This document shows, one piece after another, positions 5,318-12,575 of a stretch of 53,895 nt of DNA; position 1 is the first letter of the stretch, and every line of letters starts with the position of its first letter. The notes under the pieces are model-generated. The model saw only the letters and a list, made by a program, of their open reading frames with translations, made no database searches and was not told where the DNA came from. Source of the stretch: Alienimonas chondri (GTDB lineage: Bacteria; Planctomycetota; Planctomycetia; Planctomycetales; Planctomycetaceae). Location of the stretch: the NCBI RefSeq assembly GCF_013036045.1, contig NZ_WTPX01000017.1, positions 1 to 53,895 on the forward strand, read 5' to 3'. The position numbers were made by a program, and so were the translations under genes.

Positions 5318-7156
5318 TCACTCGACGGTCACGCTCTTCGCCAGATTCCGCGGCTTGTCCACGTCGAGCCCCCGCAGCACCGCGCAGTGGTAGGCGAGCA
5401 GTTGCAGCGGCACGCTGGTCACCAGCGGGGAGAGCAGCGGCTCGGTCTTGGGGACGTATAGGCACTCGTCCGCAATGCGGCAGACCTCGGTGTCGCCTTC
5501 GCTGACGACGGCGATCACGCGGCCCTTGCGGGACTTCACCTCCTCGATGTTGCTCAGCACCTTCTCGTAGGTGTGGTCCTGCGGGGCGATGACGACCACC
5601 GGCATGCCGTCGTCGATCAGGGCGATCGGGCCATGTTTCATCTCCGCGGCGGGCAGTCCCTCGGCGTGGATGTAGCTGATTTCCTTCAGCTTCAACGCCC
5701 CCTCCAACGCCGCGGGAAAGTTCACGCCGCGGCCGAGGTAGAGCCAGTTGTCTCGCTCGACGAGCTTCTCCGCGAGCGCCTTCACTTCGTCGTCGAGGTC
5801 GAGGGCGGTGCGGATCTTGTCCGGGATCGTCATCAGTTCCTCAGCCAGCGCGACGGTACGCTCCGGCGAAAGGTGCCGACGTCGGCCGAGGTCCAGGGCC
5901 ATCATCGCCAGCACGGCGACCTGCGCGGTGAACGCTTTGGTGCTGGCCACGCCGATCTCCGGCCCGACGTGCAGGTAGACGCCGGCGTCCGTCTCCCGGG
6001 CAATCGTGCTGCCCACGGTGTTCACCACGCCCAGCACGCGGGCGCCGCGGGTCTGCACTTCGCGGAGGGCCGCGAGGGTGTCCGCCGTCTCGCCCGACTG
6101 GCTGACGGCCACCGCGAGCGTGTTCTTCAACACGATCGGATTGCGATACCGCAGCTCGCTGGCGTACTCGACTTCGCAGGGGATGCCGGCGAGTTCTTCA
6201 AACAGATACTCCCCGATCAGCCCGGCATGCCATGCCGTGCCGCACCCCATCAGCAGCATGCGTTCGGTCCGCGGCAGCTCGCGGGCGATCAGCGACAGTC
6301 CGCCCAGCGTGACCTTGTCCGAGCCCTCCCGCAGGCGGCCGCGGAGGGTGTTGGTGAGGGCGTCCGGCTGCTCGTAGATCTCTTTGAGCATGTGATGCTC
6401 GAACCCCGTGTGGTCCAGCTCCACATCCTCGATCGCCATCTCCAGTTCTTCGAATCGCTTCTCGACCGGCACGTCGTCGATGGTCCCGGCGGTCATGCCG
6501 TCCGGGCCGAGGCGGACGATCTCGTCGTCGTCCAGATAGCTCACTCGGACCGCCTGCCCGGCGATCGCGGCGGCGTCGGACGCGATGAAATAGGCGCCGT
6601 CGGCCTGCCCCACCAGCAGCGGCGAACCGCGGCGGGCGGCGATCAGCGTGTGCGGGGCGTCCGGGGAGACGACCGCGATCCCGAAGGTGCCCCGCACCTC
6701 CAACAGTCCCCGGCGGACGCTTTCCAGCAGGTCGCCGGTCTGGCTGTAGAAGAAGCCGACGAGTTGGGCGAGGACTTCAGTATCCGTCTCGCTGCGGAAG
6801 GTGACGTCCTGCTTCTTGAGGAAGTCCCGGATCGCGGCATGGTTCTCGATCACCCCGTTGTGAACCAGCACCACCTTGCCGGCCGCATCGACGTGGGGGT
6901 GCGCGTTCTCCTGTGTCGGGCGACCGTGCGTCGCCCAGCGGGTGTGGGCGATGCCGAGCGAGCCGCGAACCGGCTGTTCGTCACAGAGATTCTTCAGGCG
7001 TTCCACCCGCCCGACGGAGCGCCGCAGGTCGAAGCCGTCCTCGTGCACGGTGACGAGGCCGGCGCTGTCGTAGCCGCGATATTCGAGCCGCCGCAGACCG
7101 GCGAGCAGCACGTCTTCGGCTTCCTGATCGCCGAGGTATCCCACAATCCCGCACAT
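5318..7156 (-). CDS. glmS: Glutamine--fructose-6-phosphate aminotransferase (isomerizing)
   Basis: This 612-residue cytoplasmic enzyme makes glucosamine 6-phosphate from fructose 6-phosphate and glutamine, the entry to amino-sugar and envelope polysaccharide synthesis. The N-terminal glutaminase half starts MCGIVGYLG, where Cys2 is the nucleophile after Met removal, followed by RRLEYRGYDSAGL and HTRWATHGRPT. Two SIS domains follow, with LLMGCGTAWHAGLIGEYL near residue 300 and LGRGVNFPAALEGALKLKE near 470. The C-terminus ends PRNLAKSVTVE, the conserved tail that closes the sugar site. Length is normal. No glmS ribozyme was recognised in the 201 bases upstream. It is convergent with purK. Confidence 0.97.
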   Translation of the reverse strand: MCGIVGYLGDQEAEDVLLAGLRRLEYRGYDSAGLVTVHEDGFDLRRSVGRVERLKNLCDEQPVRGSLGIAHTRWATHGRPTQENAHPHVDAAGKVVLVHNGVIENHAAIRDFLKKQDVTFRSETDTEVLAQLVGFFYSQTGDLLESVRRGLLEVRGTFGIAVVSPDAPHTLIAARRGSPLLVGQADGAYFIASDAAAIAGQAVRVSYLDDDEIVRLGPDGMTAGTIDDVPVEKRFEELEMAIEDVELDHTGFEHHMLKEIYEQPDALTNTLRGRLREGSDKVTLGGLSLIARELPRTERMLLMGCGTAWHAGLIGEYLFEELAGIPCEVEYASELRYRNPIVLKNTLAVAVSQSGETADTLAALREVQTRGARVLGVVNTVGSTIARETDAGVYLHVGPEIGVASTKAFTAQVAVLAMMALDLGRRRHLSPERTVALAEELMTIPDKIRTALDLDDEVKALAEKLVERDNWLYLGRGVNFPAALEGALKLKEISYIHAEGLPAAEMKHGPIALIDDGMPVVVIAPQDHTYEKVLSNIEEVKSRKGRVIAVVSEGDTEVCRIADECLYVPKTEPLLSPLVTSVPLQLLAYHCAVLRGLDVDKPRNLAKSVTVE

Positions 7157-7284
7157 CGGTGGCGTCCCTGATCGTTGCTATTGAAGGCGGCGTTCGGCCC
7201 CGGATCAACCCCGGGTTCGTCGCAACCTAGCACCGGAACGCAACCCCGACCACATCCAGTTTCTCATCGGACCGCGCAGACGAA

Positions 7285-7316
7285 CGCCCCGCCGCGAAGG
7301 GGATCGCGACGGGGCG
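7285..7316 (-). terminator. Hairpin after the DUF3618-gene operon
   Basis: A 12-base arm at 7285-7296 (cgccccgccgcg) pairs with 7305-7316 at 11 of 12 positions around an 8-base loop. It lies about 40 bases beyond the stop of the minus-strand repeat-protein gene and before glmS. No T-run follows on either strand, so it is a weak terminator call. The remaining bases of the 7157-7357 gap, which should include the glmS promoter, show nothing else that I recognise. Confidence 0.4.
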
Positions 7317-7357
7317 GGCGATCGACGGCGAGGCGAGCCCCGCCCAGCCGGTCGGCG

Positions 7358-9502
7358 TCAGGCGTTGACCGTCTCGCGGACCTTGTTCTTGGCGGCGTCG
7401 GCGACGTTTTGAGCCTTCGATTCCGCTTTGCCCTTGAGGTGATCGGCTTCGCTCTCGGCTTGTCCTTCGACGTTCTGGGCCTCGGACGCGGCTTTGTCGG
7501 CGACCTCGGCGGCGGCCATTTTGGCGCCAGACGTGGCGGCGTCCGCCACCGCGGACGCCCGGCCCTTCAGCCCGGCCGGATCCAGTCCTTCGGCCTTTGC
7601 GGCGTGGCTCAGGTCCGAACCCATCTGACGACCGGCGTTCTGCGCGAGGTGCGCCGCCTTGTCGACGAGATCCTTCGGGGTGAGACCCTGGCGTTCCATC
7701 TCGTCCAGCGTCATGCCCATCGCCTGGGCGGCGGACTGCTTCGCCTGGTGAAGAACCGCTTCGGCGGAGTGCCCCGCCTGATCGACCAAGCGATCGCGGG
7801 ACGGCCCCATCAGACGGTTCTCCGCCCGGGTGCGAGGCACGACGAACCCGGCCAACAGGCCGGCGGCGAGGAATCCGAGGCCCACGGCCAGCGGGTTCTC
7901 CTGCACGCCGCGGTCGAATCGATCTTTGGTGGCTTCGTAACCGTCCACGGTTTTCTCCAGGGCTTGATGGCCGAGCGCGCCGGCCGAGTGATAGGCGTCC
8001 TCCGCGAAGTGCGAAACGGACGAGGAAGCCGAACGTGCCGCGTCGGCGATCGCGGAACCGGAATACAACAACGCCCCGGTCGTGGCGTGGTAGCAGTTGC
8101 CCGTGCAGTCGGCGACGTAGTCGGCAGCGTGATAGGCGCCGTCCTTCACCTCGGACCCGGCGTGCAACAGGGCACCGGTGGCCGCGTCGTACACGTTGCC
8201 GGCCGTCACCTTCACGCTGCGGCCGGCCTCGCGGGCGGCATGAGCCGCGGCGCTGCCGGCATAGAGGAACGCGCCGGTGGTCGCGTGATACACGTTCCCG
8301 GCCGCGTCGGCGAAGGTTTCGCCGGCCTTCACGACGCCGTCCTTCGCTTCCGCCCCCGCGTGGAGCAGGGTGTCGCTGGTCGCGTCGTAAACGTTTCCGG
8401 CCGTCACCTTGACGTTCTTCCCCGCGGAGCGAGCCGCCTCCGCGGCGCTGCTCCCCGCATATAGCAGGGCGCCGGTCGCCTTGTCGTACACGTTGCCGGC
8501 GGCGTCGGCCGAGGTTTGCGCGGCGGAGAACGTCCCGTCCTTGGCCTTGCTGCCGGCATGCAACAGGGCGCCGGTGGCCGTGTCCGTCACGCGACCGGCT
8601 TGCACCGTCACGTCGCGGGAGGTGTTCGCCGCGTACCGCTGGACCGTAGCGCCGGCGGAGGCGGCGGTGTCCGCGGTCGCCTCGGCTCCGGAGGAGAACG
8701 CCCCCGAGACGGAACTCACCGCGGCGGAGAGCGAGTTCGCCACGCTGGTGCCCGCGGCGGCGATCTGGTTGCCGGCCTCGTCGTACCAGTGCCCGGCCGC
8801 ATCGCTCCATGAACCGCCGGAGGAAGAGGAATCGGAGCTCGTGGCCCGCGGGTTCCGATAGCCGGCGCCGTAATTCTCGCTGTACGGGAGACCGGTGCGG
8901 GCGTCGACGTAGGAACCGCTGTACTGGCGAGGCTCCGGGTTCCCCTCGTAGGTCCAGCGGCGGTACTGCCGGCGGGCGGTTTTCTTGAGCGGATCTTCGA
9001 AGAACGCATAGGCGAGGCCGGCCGCGCAAATCGCCGTGGCGGTCGGATTCTCGCGAATCGCATCGCCGACCGTACTGATCAGCTTCGATCCCGACTTGTA
9101 GACGTCTCCGAACCCGAGCAGGTCCGCGGGGCCGCTGGCGACCGTCCCTTCCTGCCGGACCTGGACGCGGGTGCCGTCTTCAAGCACGCGCTCCTCATAG
9201 ACCGGCTGTGCGGTCGTGCGAGCGGCCGCGGAGGTCGTGCCGAGACCGAACCAGCTTTTCGCGAAATCGGCGGCGTCGTCGATGAGGGCCGCGGGACGCA
9301 GCCGTTCGCCGAGTTGGTCGAGCGTGCCGTCCATCTCGGACCGCGTCCGGGCGATATCCGCGCGGATTTCTCCGCTGGAGGTTTCCTCCGGGTAGGCCGG
9401 CGGGGTGGCCGGGTTGGCCGGCGAATCCGGCCGCTGAGCCGCTCGCTCGGGCGGAACGCCGTCGGTGTACGGCTTGGCGTTGGGTTGAGGGGCAGTATTC
9501 AT
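7358..9502 (-). CDS. DUF3618 membrane protein with 33-residue tandem repeats
   Basis: A 714-residue protein of unknown biochemical role. A Pro-rich start is followed by a DUF3618 segment (EIRADIARTRSEMDGTLDQL, residues 45-64), a first hydrophobic segment (about 152-168) and a Ser-rich linker. Residues 302-499 are six repeats of exactly 33 residues, consensus AGNVYDxATGALLxAGS, in an alternating A-B pattern. Two degenerate units precede them from residue 236. A second membrane segment (536-555, NPLAVGLGFLAAGLLAGF) leads to the DUF3618-like PRTRAENRLMGPSRDRL. The last 80 residues are Ala/Lys/Glu-rich with a LEA-like helical pattern. It is the last gene of a three-gene operon and overlaps the holin-like gene by four bases (ATGA). 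The setting resembles DUF3618/holin/stress-protein operons of rhizobia, so an envelope-stress role is inferred. Confidence 0.85.
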   Translation of the reverse strand: MNTAPQPNAKPYTDGVPPERAAQRPDSPANPATPPAYPEETSSGEIRADIARTRSEMDGTLDQLGERLRPAALIDDAADFAKSWFGLGTTSAAARTTAQPVYEERVLEDGTRVQVRQEGTVASGPADLLGFGDVYKSGSKLISTVGDAIRENPTATAICAAGLAYAFFEDPLKKTARRQYRRWTYEGNPEPRQYSGSYVDARTGLPYSENYGAGYRNPRATSSDSSSSGGSWSDAAGHWYDEAGNQIAAAGTSVANSLSAAVSSVSGAFSSGAEATADTAASAGATVQRYAANTSRDVTVQAGRVTDTATGALLHAGSKAKDGTFSAAQTSADAAGNVYDKATGALLYAGSSAAEAARSAGKNVKVTAGNVYDATSDTLLHAGAEAKDGVVKAGETFADAAGNVYHATTGAFLYAGSAAAHAAREAGRSVKVTAGNVYDAATGALLHAGSEVKDGAYHAADYVADCTGNCYHATTGALLYSGSAIADAARSASSSVSHFAEDAYHSAGALGHQALEKTVDGYEATKDRFDRGVQENPLAVGLGFLAAGLLAGFVVPRTRAENRLMGPSRDRLVDQAGHSAEAVLHQAKQSAAQAMGMTLDEMERQGLTPKDLVDKAAHLAQNAGRQMGSDLSHAAKAEGLDPAGLKGRASAVADAATSGAKMAAAEVADKAASEAQNVEGQAESEADHLKGKAESKAQNVADAAKNKVRETVNA
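8006..8599 (-). repeat. Six in-frame 99-bp tandem repeats (ABABAB)
   Basis: Residues 302-334, 335-367, 368-400, 401-433, 434-466 and 467-499 of the DUF3618 protein align without gaps. A units contain LLHAG and then KDG (kept in all three, at 316-323, 380-389 and 445-454). B units contain LYAGS or LYSGS and then an Ala-rich AARSAG/AAREAG segment. The true period is therefore 66 residues or 198 bp. Thirty-three is three times eleven, the period of group 3 LEA helices. Copies differ at many synonymous and some amino-acid positions, so the array is not freshly expanded. Confidence 0.9.
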
Positions 9503-9996
9503 CGGGGGGTGACTTTCTGTTTAAGCTCTTGGATATCGTGGCCGACGTGCCGGGCATCCGCCTTCACGCTGGCGATCGTCTGGTTCGGCACCGGGCTGGT
9601 GGACGAGATCTTGTCGACGGCCGACCTGATCAAGAACGCACCGATCGCCAGAGCGAGGGCCGGGACGCCGACGAAGCCCACGGCCCCGGCGACCCAATGG
9701 ACCCATTCGTCCGCGTCCTCGCCGCCGCCGATCGCGATGACTACGAAGTACGCCGCGGTCGCCAGAGCGAGCAGCAGAGCCACCGCGGACGCGAACGCCA
9801 ACGCGGCTCCGGCGGCGATCTTTCCGGCGTTTCGACCGTAGATCGCAGCCTTTTCGGACAGTTCCGTTTTGGCGAGGGCGACTTCCTGCCGGACCAGCGT
9901 GGTGCTCTCGTCCCGCAGGTCTTTCAGCAAGTCAGCGAGTGAACGGCCGTCGTCACGGGTGGGCGGCGGCGGTGCGGTGGGGGCGTCGATGGACAT
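9499..9996 (-). CDS. Holin-X / YqjE-like (phage holin family) membrane protein
   Basis: A 165-residue membrane protein. An N-terminal amphipathic part (SLADLLKDLRDESTTLVRQEVALAKTEL-type, residues 19-46) is typical of the family formerly called DUF1469, named after holins although usually not phage-borne. Two membrane segments follow, about 60-87 (GAALAFASAVALLLALATAAYFVV) and about 101-122 (WVAGAVGFVGVPALALAIGAF). The C-terminus is charged. It is the middle gene of the operon: 57 bases separate it from the LEA-like gene, and its stop overlaps the next ATG. No phage genes are nearby, so lysis is unlikely. A cell-envelope role, perhaps anchoring the two alanine-rich partners, is inferred. Confidence 0.8.
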   Translation of the reverse strand: MSIDAPTAPPPPTRDDGRSLADLLKDLRDESTTLVRQEVALAKTELSEKAAIYGRNAGKIAAGAALAFASAVALLLALATAAYFVVIAIGGGEDADEWVHWVAGAVGFVGVPALALAIGAFLIRSAVDKISSTSPVPNQTIASVKADARHVGHDIQELKQKVTPR

Positions 9997-10053
9997 GTGG
10001 GGAGAGGGACTGAGAACGGCGGAGAGAGGCTGGATCGATAGGCCGAAGCCGGA

Positions 10054-10827
10054 CTATTTGGGATTCGCAGGCACGACGGTGGAGGTCTCTTCCAGCACCG
10101 TCACCGCGCCGCGGTTCGGAGCGGGATTCGAAAGCCGCGCGGGGGCGCCGCCGTAACCGCCGGAGGTGCTGCCGCTGTATCCGCCGCCGTACTGCGGGGG
10201 GGCGTAGCCGGAGCCCGTCGAGGAGTTCGAGGCGTAGCTGTGGGACGAGGATTCGGAACCGCGGGTGCTCTTGAAGAACCGAGCCAAGCCCAGTCCGAGC
10301 ACGAACATGCCGCCGAGCACGACCTCGGGATGGCGACGGGCGAAGTTCTCCGCCTGATCAATCAGATCGCCGGTGTTGCGACTGTCCAGGTAGCTCCCGA
10401 AGGACTGCACCTTGTCCGCGGCGGCCCGCACGACGGGGGCGGCGGGGTCGTCGTTCTTCTCCAACTCTTCGGCGGCCTTGGAGATCGCGCTGCCGTAGGT
10501 GTTCACCTCGCCGGCCGCTTTCTTCTTGCCGGTCTCGGTGGCCTCGGCCACCCTCTGCCGCATGAAAGACTGAGCTTCGGCGGCCTTGGCGTAGGCTTCC
10601 TGTTTCGCAGAACCGACCAGGTCGCCGGCGCGGTCTTTCGCCTGCTTAGCGGCGTCGGACAAGGCGGCGCCGGCCTGATCCACCGCGGCGGACGCTTCAG
10701 AGCCGGCCTGCTGGGCGGCGTCGGTCGCGGCGGACTTGGCTTGGGCAGTCTTCTGCGAAAGCTCGTCGCGGCCGGCGGCCAACTGGTCCTTAGCCTTGTC
10801 GGTCGGGGGGGGCTGGGTAGCGGGCAT
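10054..10827 (-). CDS. Alanine-rich LEA-like protein with one membrane segment
   Basis: A 257-residue protein. Residues 1-170 are Ala/Lys/Glu/Gln/Asp-rich and should form long amphipathic helices, with repeated DAAKQAKDRAGD- and DAAQQAGSEAS-like 11-residue patterns of group 3 LEA or apolipoprotein type. A segment at about 173-195 (HPEVVLGGMFVLGLGLARFF) is a likely membrane anchor. The last 60 residues are Gly/Ser/Tyr-rich (PPQYGGGYSGSTSGGYGG) and probably disordered. Similar proteins in rhizobia are called nutrient-deprivation-induced proteins. It is the first gene of the three-gene operon and lies downstream of a sigma-54-like promoter candidate. Desiccation or starvation protection of the envelope is inference from composition and context. 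Confidence 0.75.
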   Translation of the reverse strand: MPATQPPPTDKAKDQLAAGRDELSQKTAQAKSAATDAAQQAGSEASAAVDQAGAALSDAAKQAKDRAGDLVGSAKQEAYAKAAEAQSFMRQRVAEATETGKKKAAGEVNTYGSAISKAAEELEKNDDPAAPVVRAAADKVQSFGSYLDSRNTGDLIDQAENFARRHPEVVLGGMFVLGLGLARFFKSTRGSESSSHSYASNSSTGSGYAPPQYGGGYSGSTSGGYGGAPARLSNPAPNRGAVTVLEETSTVVPANPK

Positions 10828-10920
10828 TGTTCGTCGGATGTGGTTCGGAATTCTGTTGAGCGGTAGGCCGGCGGGTCGGCCTCTGCGAAAGGCGAGTCGG
10901 CCTCCGTGGCATGCAGAGAG

Positions 10921-10937
10921 TCAAATTCCGTGCCAAA
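10921..10937 (-). promoter_or_regulatory. Sigma-54-like promoter candidate for the LEA/holin/DUF3618 operon
   Basis: Read on the minus strand, the bases are TTTGGCACGGAATTTGA. This matches the sigma-54 -24 element TGGCACG exactly. The -12 element TTGC appears as TTGA with correct spacing (GG, ten bases, then GA where GC is expected). It ends about 94 bases before the operon's first ATG at 10827. The mismatch at the conserved C weakens the call. The rest of the 10828-11096 gap also serves the divergent aldehyde dehydrogenase gene and shows no other recognised site. Confidence 0.35.
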
Positions 10938-11096
10938 CTCCAAAATCCGTATCAGAAGCGGTTCTGATCCCCGCCGATGGTCGCCCCCCGGCCAGGACGG
11001 CCGGGCGTCGCACAGCCACCGCTGTTGCCCGAGCCGGCGATCGCCGACAGGATGCCCCGGACCCGCAAACTCTTCTCAATCCGCATCGCGATCGAT

Positions 11097-12575
11097 ATGT
11101 CCTCGTCTGATCCCGGCTCCACCGGCTTTTCCGCGTTCGATCCTGCCACCGGGGAAGCGCTCGACGCCGACTTTCCGATCGCGACGTGGGCCGTGTTGGA
11201 CGAACTCGCCGGGAACGCCGCCGCGGCGTTTGAAGTCGGGGCCGAAGCGGACACGGTCGCTGCCTTCTTGGAGGCGTACGCGGACCGGATCGACGCGAAC
11301 GCCGCCAGCCTCGCGGCCGTCGCGGCCCGGGAGACCGGGTTGCCGGAAGAAGGTCGTTTGAAGAACGGCGAGATCCCCCGCACCAGCGGGCAGCTTCGGC
11401 AGGCCGCCGCCGCGGTCCGCGACGGAGCCTGGGCGCGACCGACGATCTCCGACGGCAATATTCGGTCGATCCTCGAACCGCTCGGCCCGACGGTGGTGAT
11501 CGGTCCGAACAACTTCCCCTTCGCCTTCAACGGCGTATGTGGCGGAGACTTCGCCGCCGCGATCGGCGCCGGCTGCCCGGTGATCGCCAAGGGGCACCCC
11601 CATCACCCCGCCACCTGCCGCGATCTGGCGGCGTTGATGAAGGAAGCCGCAAAGGCCGTCGGCCTGCTGGACGGGTGGGTGAGCTTCTTTTACGACTGCA
11701 CACCGGAGGACGGCTTGAAGCTGGTCCGTGATCCTCGGATCGCGGCGGTCGCCTTCACCGGATCGCAACGGGCCGGGCTGTCGATCAAGGCCGCGTGCGA
11801 TGAGACCGGCACGGTCGGTCACTTCGAACTCGGCAGCGTGAACCCGCTGTTCATCCTGCCGGGGGCGTTGGAGGAGCGAGCCGAGGAAATCGTCGACGAA
11901 CTTACCACCAGCGCCCTGCTGGGCGGCGGACAGTTCTGCACCCAACCGGGGATCGTCGTGCTGCCGGCGGGCGAGGCGACCACCAAGTTCGCCTCGCAGC
12001 TTCAAGAGAAGTTCGATGCCGCCCCGACCCCGCCGCTGCTCTCGGAAGCGGTGGTGACGGGACTCGAAGAGGGAACCAAGACGCTGCGGAAGGCCGGGGC
12101 GAACGTGCTGCCCTCGGCGCCGTCCCCCGACGAACCCGGTTATCGCTACCCGAACACCGTGCTGGCCGTCCCCGGCGAGCGGTTCCTCGAAGACCCGAAC
12201 GCCTTCCAGACGGAGTGTTTCGGCCCGGCCTCCCTGCTGGTCACCCGCACGGATGCGGAGCAGCGCCTCGCCATCGCCCGCACCCTGCATGGGCAACTGA
12301 CCGCGACGATCTACAGCGACACCCACGGCGCCGACGACGCGGAGTACGGCCCGCTCGCCGCGATCCTGCGTCGCAGGTGCGGCCGGTTGTTGAACGACAA
12401 GATGCCCACCGGCGTGGCGGTCGTCCCGGCGATGAACCACGGCGGCCCCTATCCAGCCAGCGGACATCCCCACTTCACCGCGGTCGGCATTCCGGCATCG
12501 ATGACGCGTTTCACCCGCCTCGCCTGCTACGACAACGTCCGCAACGATCGCCTCCCGGCGGCATTGCGGGACTGA
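11097..12575 (+). CDS. Aldehyde dehydrogenase, 2,5-dioxovalerate dehydrogenase-like (NADP+)
   Basis: A 492-residue ALDH-fold enzyme. The closest family by motif is alpha-ketoglutaric semialdehyde dehydrogenase type III, which oxidises 2,5-dioxopentanoate to 2-oxoglutarate in sugar-acid catabolism. Visible are VVIGPNNFPFAFN (residues 132-144), the cofactor loop FTGSQRAG near 220, general-base Glu244 in HFELGSVNP, catalytic Cys281 in GGGQFCTQPG, and LTATIYSDTH near 400. The ATG at 11097 was chosen. The upstream frame stays open but reads as low-complexity Arg/Pro sequence, with another ATG at 11052. No sugar-acid dehydratase gene lies nearby, so the substrate is not supported by context and other aldehydes remain possible. 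It is four bases from the next gene. Confidence 0.82.
   Translation: MSSSDPGSTGFSAFDPATGEALDADFPIATWAVLDELAGNAAAAFEVGAEADTVAAFLEAYADRIDANAASLAAVAARETGLPEEGRLKNGEIPRTSGQLRQAAAAVRDGAWARPTISDGNIRSILEPLGPTVVIGPNNFPFAFNGVCGGDFAAAIGAGCPVIAKGHPHHPATCRDLAALMKEAAKAVGLLDGWVSFFYDCTPEDGLKLVRDPRIAAVAFTGSQRAGLSIKAACDETGTVGHFELGSVNPLFILPGALEERAEEIVDELTTSALLGGGQFCTQPGIVVLPAGEATTKFASQLQEKFDAAPTPPLLSEAVVTGLEEGTKTLRKAGANVLPSAPSPDEPGYRYPNTVLAVPGERFLEDPNAFQTECFGPASLLVTRTDAEQRLAIARTLHGQLTATIYSDTHGADDAEYGPLAAILRRRCGRLLNDKMPTGVAVVPAMNHGGPYPASGHPHFTAVGIPASMTRFTRLACYDNVRNDRLPAALRD

Follow-up and report, generated by a model that had tools for sequence, protein, structure and literature searches.

What is an array of tandem 33-residue repeats doing in a bacterial membrane protein, and how did it come about? 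The question is raised by a 53,895-nt stretch of Alienimonas chondri (contig NZ_WTPX01000017.1, positions 1 to 53,895; here the window), where such an array lies in a 714-aa protein with a DUF3618 domain, encoded by the third gene (gene 3) of a conserved trio. The explanation that we consider best overall, and moderately probable, is that the array is an expanded 11-residue amphipathic linker, which would form a membrane-bound helix in a stress-type gene trio. The protein family and the trio are of known kinds, the expanded 33/66-residue array being a new variant. The features of the protein are the following (G001 is a genus-mate; G062 and L027 are loci of homologues):

7358..9502, minus strand: DUF3618 membrane protein of 714 aa, in which the array lies; 83% identical orthologue in G001
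9257..9370, minus strand: DUF3618 domain (PF12277), residues 45-82, Pfam match
8987..9043, minus strand: first membrane-like segment, weak, residues 154-172, preceded by an ENP motif; hydropathy mean 1.02, conserved in homologues
8879..8920, minus strand: SGSYVDARTGxPY motif, residues 195-208; one copy here, two in G062 and L027
8714..8812, minus strand: degenerate B-type unit, residues 231-263; score matched by 0/5000 shuffles
8615..8713, minus strand: possible degenerate A-type unit, residues 264-296; p 0.012 (0.031 in G001)
8021..8614, minus strand: six clear 33-residue units in the order A-B-A-B-A-B, residues 297-494, from self-comparison
7922..8020, minus strand: candidate A-type unit, degenerate, residues 495-527; p 0.014 here and in G001
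7835..7891, minus strand: main membrane segment, residues 538-556, rich in glycine and alanine and preceded by an ENP motif; hydropathy mean 2.17, strongly conserved block
7361..7807, minus strand: C-terminal tail, residues 566-714, probably helical from low-confidence AlphaFold2 helices

The six units follow one another without any gap. An earlier sequence-only reading had described six exact repeats at 8006-8599, which is the identical array in a register shifted 5 residues later; the lack of gaps and the exactness of the period hold, but the copies themselves are not exact, being 33-73% identical. With a lag of 33 residues, a BLOSUM62 self-comparison of the seven 33-residue stretches in residues 297-527 scored 1.58 per residue, and with a lag of 66 it scored 2.56; in 2000 shuffles, the scores averaged about -0.47 at both lags and never exceeded 0.05 at lag 33 or 0.10 at lag 66. 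Units of the same type share 48-73% identity and units of different type 33-52%, in agreement with the A-B alternation, and the real unit of 66 residues, proposed in that reading. The most conserved columns are contiguous (A-G-N-V-Y-D..T-G-A-L-L.A-G), and profile searches found no assigned repeat family for this motif, which the same reading had been unable to place. The clear degenerate B-type unit upstream, whose score was matched by none of 5000 shuffles in G001 as well, and the two weak A-type candidates may extend the array to 297 residues, i.e., 6-9 units. The array is rich in Gly, Ser, Thr and Ala, with 7% aromatics; proline is absent from the whole 297-residue stretch, and 16-17% of its residues are charged.

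The duplication is old and not fresh, since the DNA identity between units is only 0.43-0.75. G001 likewise holds six units, each window unit being nearest to its positional counterpart there (79-88%), thus indicating an array older than the split of the two species; the comparison of unit numbers suggested earlier could be made in these two species only, and gave equal numbers. In a simple pairwise estimate, dN/dS was 0.21 in the array and 0.12-0.39 elsewhere in the protein, so that the array is under purifying selection as is the protein that hosts it. When 397 genomes of the class were searched with the unit profile, five matches were retrieved at E<=0.01, two of them in this genus. The remaining three are a partial match of 43 residues in G080 (E 4e-4), where no DUF3618-like protein was found among open frames of at least 150 aa in 2,077 bases, and weak matches in G261 and G388. 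Judged from these matches, full units appear limited to this genus among the genomes searched.

A second regularity runs inside the units. Over the six units, hydrophobicity peaks at 98.2-98.5 degrees, corresponding to an 11/3 helix, a peak that none of 2000 column permutations reached on either scale; in the mean 66-residue profile, the power at the 11/3 harmonic was reached by 5/20000 permutations. On the helical wheel, the hydrophobic sides of all six 11-residue blocks fall within the same half (88-176 degrees), and 33-mer moments are 0.20-0.26 over the array. The same phase is found in the homologues: in all 12 stretches preceding the main membrane segment the top periodogram peak fell at 98.0-100.5 degrees, with a power reached by 0-13 of 2000 shuffles; among the 12, neither the window and G001 proteins nor the three rhizobial ones are independent of each other. 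Of 21 control segments taken from three neighbouring enzymes, none gave p<=0.01, and 4 had their highest peak at 95-103 degrees. In the C-terminal tail a 98.5 degree peak was also detected in residues 593-714 (p 0.002), and 537-658 was not significant.

In the three rhizobial homologues (L031-L033), the periodicity is visible in the letters themselves, as five tandem 11-mers each, of a hydrophobic-x-D-x-(A/T)-G-like pattern, with lags of 11, 22 and 33. The best match of a profile of these 11-mers in the window protein, TFADAAGNVYH, falls inside the array. Its score of 18.0 is borderline, the highest among 100 null maxima being 17.0 in the window protein and 18.1 in that of G001; in the other seven homologues, the profile found nothing above its null 95%. 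With 33 equal to 3 x 11 and 66 to 2 x 33, the simplest reading of these lengths would be that an ancestral linker of 11-mers was duplicated step by step, and we read the array as a probable expansion of the DUF3618 linker in this lineage, from 11 to 33 to 66 residues. The DUF3618 proteins of G062 (L010 1453-2985) and L027 (3932-5527) carry the SGSYVDARTGxPY-type motif twice, about 100 residues apart, each copy followed by a Trp-containing segment; this doubling is a different duplication within the same linker.

The other two genes of the trio lie upstream:

9499..9996, minus strand: gene 2, PF07332 holin-superfamily (Holin-X) protein, with a 4-base overlap with gene 3
10054..10827, minus strand: gene 1, homologue of rhizobial nutrient-deprivation-induced proteins, with a membrane-like segment toward the C-terminus

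The complete trio, in the order gene 1, PF07332 holin-like gene and DUF3618 gene, was found in 8/8 loci with upstream sequence (the window, G001, G021/L026, G062, G057, L027, L028 and L030), a count that leaves out L029, for which little upstream sequence is available. PF07332 was matched at E<=0.01 in 8/8 loci, and gene 1 could be aligned in 8/8, with 26-33% identity to the window gene 1 outside the genus. Besides other planctomycetes, the trio occurs in a metagenome-assembled genome (MAG) of Chthoniobacterales (L028; Verrucomicrobiota) and on rhizobial plasmids, where the order was present by annotation in 3/3 loci opened of 18 matches. There the genes are annotated as 'nutrient deprivation-induced protein' (2/3, the third being 'hypothetical protein'), 'phage holin family protein' and 'DUF3618' or 'YtxH'. 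Profile alignment with hhalign joined gene 1 to the rhizobial nutrient-deprivation-induced proteins (98.4%, E 6.3e-15, 123 columns) and gene 3 to the rhizobial proteins annotated as DUF3618 (99.6%, E 1.9e-24, 299 columns), both membrane-like segments being aligned in the latter. PF12277 was matched at E<=0.01 in all 12 compared proteins (9/9 and 3/3 rhizobial), the window protein scoring 41.8 bits against a curated cut-off of 24.9; in a Pfam scan of this protein at E<=1, DUF3618 was the only match, with neither LEA nor perilipin among the hits. The domain is rare near the window, occurring in 5/61 genomes of the family sample, including the window's own and G001, and in 1/149 genomes of the phylum sample, which is the window's own. 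Gene 1 gave no Pfam match to DUF883 (YqjD) at E<=1, its only matches, to Apolipoprotein (17 bits, cut-off 90) and Kinesin_assoc (13.2 bits, cut-off 29.5), being far too weak, and no sigma-70-like promoter was found at 7000-11200. In the Chthoniobacterales MAG, the open frame of gene 1 (L028 2789-3310) stops early, inside the membrane motif.

The relatives of the trio suggest that it may have a role in stress. In Actinoplanes, two DUF3618/Holin-X pairs (ACSP50_3381/3382 and 4921/4922), likened to our genes by their names in a table, are listed as strongly and permanently induced in a sigma-H expression strain, an induction that the available part of the paper ties to osmotic stress (PMC11205660). 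For Sinorhizobium meliloti, PMC2651895 lists among the genes that depend on RpoE2 under heat ndiA, whose tie to gene 1 is solely one of name. The E. coli yqjD-yqjE genes and Pseudomonas PA3040-3042 are of similar plan and stress-linked, according to the portions available of PMC10746276 and PMC11302039; as in our trio, yqjCDEK has a tail-anchored protein followed by a holin-like one, but no DUF3618 protein is named in those portions, and gene 1 lacks the DUF883 match. The rhizobial L031-L033 proteins are a close parallel in architecture, likewise having a DUF3618 N-terminus, two membrane-like segments, a linker with 11/3 periodicity and a PF07332 neighbour; their linker holds five tandem 11-mers in each of the three proteins, whereas that of A. 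chondri has 6-9 units of 33 residues in A-B alternation.

Taken as an expanded amphipathic linker, the array could work as follows. The chain would be held in the inner membrane by segment 538-556, and the linker of 200-300 residues would be loosely structured in solution and, on meeting the membrane surface, would fold into a 3-11 helix of great length and weak amphipathicity. Its many weak contacts might provide a reversible, length-dependent membrane coat or stabiliser when the envelope is exposed to starvation, acid or heat or is stressed osmotically. The repeats, their 11/3 hydrophobic phase, its recurrence in homologues, several of them with 11-mers, the gene trio and the purifying selection were observed; that the linker binds membranes, folds when it touches them, is induced by stress in A. 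chondri and gives protection is inferred. Weak apolipoprotein-type Pfam matches were obtained in 3/9 homologues (best E 1.1e-5).

The closest design that we met is perilipin 4, and the likeness would be one of convergence, with no homology claimed. In the available text of PMC5889406, perilipin 4 has 29 gapless 33-mers, each made of three 11-mers, is unfolded in solution and binds better with more units. Gapless 33-mers of 3 x 11 residues and a weak 3-11 amphipathicity are common to both proteins, the moment being 0.257 in perilipin 4 and 0.20-0.26 in the array and the charged residues 15% and 16-17%, respectively (PMC5889406). The two differ in the number of units (29 versus 6-9), which are far more alike in perilipin 4 and for which an A-B alternation is not mentioned in the part of the paper available; moreover, perilipin 4 belongs to eukaryotic lipid droplets and its helix was measured (PMC5889406), whereas that of the array is a proposal. 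A bolder version, in which a bacterial 'giant amphipathic helix' would have reached the perilipin-4 design convergently, its repeat number making a tunable, Velcro-like coat for curved or stressed planctomycete membranes, we regard as unlikely.

Several observations weigh against a helix of this kind. When any harmonic is allowed, 320/20000 permutations (1.6%) of the mean 66-residue profile reach the observed power; four of the homologue stretches (G057, L028, L029 and L030) take in sequence outside the linker; and two of the 21 control segments came close (p 0.014 and 0.018). Eleven is the top identity lag in just 3/9 stretches before the main membrane segment (L027, L028 and L030) and not in G021, G062, G057 and L029, where it is within the top six (tied in G057). 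Aromatics make up 7% of the array and 0.2% of perilipin 4. The conserved D-x-x-T-G core resembles a beta turn and is spread beyond one helix face. AlphaFold2, run on the whole protein with five sequences, placed strands in the array, with a mean pLDDT of 39 and ten-residue block means of 28-69; run on one 66-mer with six in-register rows, it again gave strands (residues 2-5, 8-11, 17-20, 27-29, 34-36, 42-44 and 50-52, with a helix at 55-65) at pLDDT 69.2 and pTM 0.49. Chou-Fasman values for the array, 1.04 for helix and 0.96 for strand and about equal in the unit cores, do not decide. The structure prediction that the earlier reading had called for, with a solenoid or a long helical bundle in mind, thus returned strands instead of helices in a bundle, with a confidence that was low to moderate.

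These models are the natural ground for a different proposal, namely that the units are beta-hairpin modules in which Y-D-x-x-T-G-x-L-L forms strand-turn-strand and the Ala-rich parts form short helices. Stacked into a rod or a small beta solenoid, they would serve as a folded extramembrane spacer or binding surface. The contiguity of the most conserved columns would fit it, as would the SGSYVDARTGxPY motif with its similar turn letters, doubled in G062 and L027, although the match of this motif to the repeat unit is borderline (reached by 9/300 and 8/300 permutations). The hydrophobic power, however, lies at 98 degrees and is weaker above 150, and the beta model found no solved structure, the best Foldseek E being 0.72 with 0/370 chains at Z>=2. 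Short repeats of perfect period with few sequences are, moreover, a known weak spot of the structure predictor. We hold the hairpin proposal rather unlikely, and a helix more likely for the array than strands.

The low mean pLDDT would equally suit a disordered, low-constraint entropic linker, whose periodicity would be a relic of duplication with no structural meaning, and so would the Gly/Ser/Thr/Ala-rich composition and the variable length among homologues. Against this stand the zero indels in six units, the equal unit number in two species, the dN/dS of the array and the coherent helical phase in every 11-residue block, and we find such a linker clearly unlikely. A molecular ruler or scaffold, i.e., a rigid rod of fixed length separating two membrane segments or two membranes, is in our opinion very improbable. 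A helix of 198 residues, rising 1.5 A with each, would measure about 30 nm, and the unit number is common to the two species; yet homologues with the same trio have far shorter linkers, and only one membrane segment is strongly hydrophobic. Of the two membrane segments between which the earlier reading had placed the array, 538-556 is strongly hydrophobic (Kyte-Doolittle mean 2.17), but the mean of 154-172 (1.02) is below that of 247-265 (1.22), which lies inside the degenerate units. The idea of that reading that the length of the array sets a spacing finds no support in the much shorter and variable linkers of same-trio homologues, and is disfavoured because linker lengths vary so widely and the first membrane segment is weak.

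Some identities were considered for the array and set aside. Alpha-synuclein gave the sole PDB matches of the unit profile (35/35 chains, best E 0.024), and Synuclein was also the best Pfam match of the 198-residue array (E 0.066), whereas the 297-residue stretch had no Pfam match at E<=10. Homology was dropped because a reversed decoy profile scored about as well (E 0.048, on MurA); column-permuted and block-permuted decoys gave nothing below E 1.2, which favours synuclein, but one decoy at that level was judged enough. The likeness is at noise level, consistent with a shared 11-mer chemistry and not with homology. At E<=10, the Pfam list of the array comprised Synuclein, DUF7287, FCP1_C, Big_13 and Tape_meas_lam_C, all below cut-off, and none of the carboxypeptidase-regulatory, PQQ-propeller or YD-repeat families, which the core had called to mind. 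A perilipin by descent was rejected, with no Pfam match of the window protein to perilipin at E<=1. Group 3 LEA proteins are built from 11-residue amphipathic repeats, and the earlier reading had noted that the 33-residue length equals three such turns. The arithmetic, the 11/3 periodicity and the 11-mers of several homologues are in its favour, but LEA_4 was matched neither by the protein at E<=1 nor by the array at E<=10; the A. chondri protein is, in addition, membrane-anchored, and its array is presumably richer in Tyr, Val, Leu and Gly than group 3 LEA proteins. A phage origin was likewise discarded: 75 pattern matches in viral contigs left 0 confirmed, 50,697 phage records gave none at E<=1e-5, and PHROGs only matches at E 0.19 and 0.44. 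No plasmid relatives of the window protein itself were found at E<=1e-5.

DUF3618 beside PF07332 occurs in several phyla and is stress-linked in relatives. In the literature, searched without spelling variants or subscription journals, no mechanism for DUF3618/PF07332 was met, DUF3618 being named, in the text available, only in a table of PMC11205660, and the phrase 'nutrient deprivation-induced protein' was not found. The 11/3 periodicity shared by the linkers, conspicuous here through expansion, leads to a testable idea, i.e., that linker length sets membrane affinity. If true, perilipin 4 would have a bacterial counterpart, one for which variants of different length already exist.

Beyond the trio, an aldehyde dehydrogenase gene (window 10977-12575, Pfam) lies divergent to gene 1, and a similar-looking protein is found by eye at the corresponding place of the G021/L026 locus (L026 664-2340). 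An aldehyde dehydrogenase-like gene at both loci suggests that the conserved neighbourhood may extend past the trio. Immediately downstream of the DUF3618 gene of G021, on contig C20, is an open frame encoding 168 aa (L003 2813-3319), rich in cysteine and with repeats of the CCAP/APSC type.

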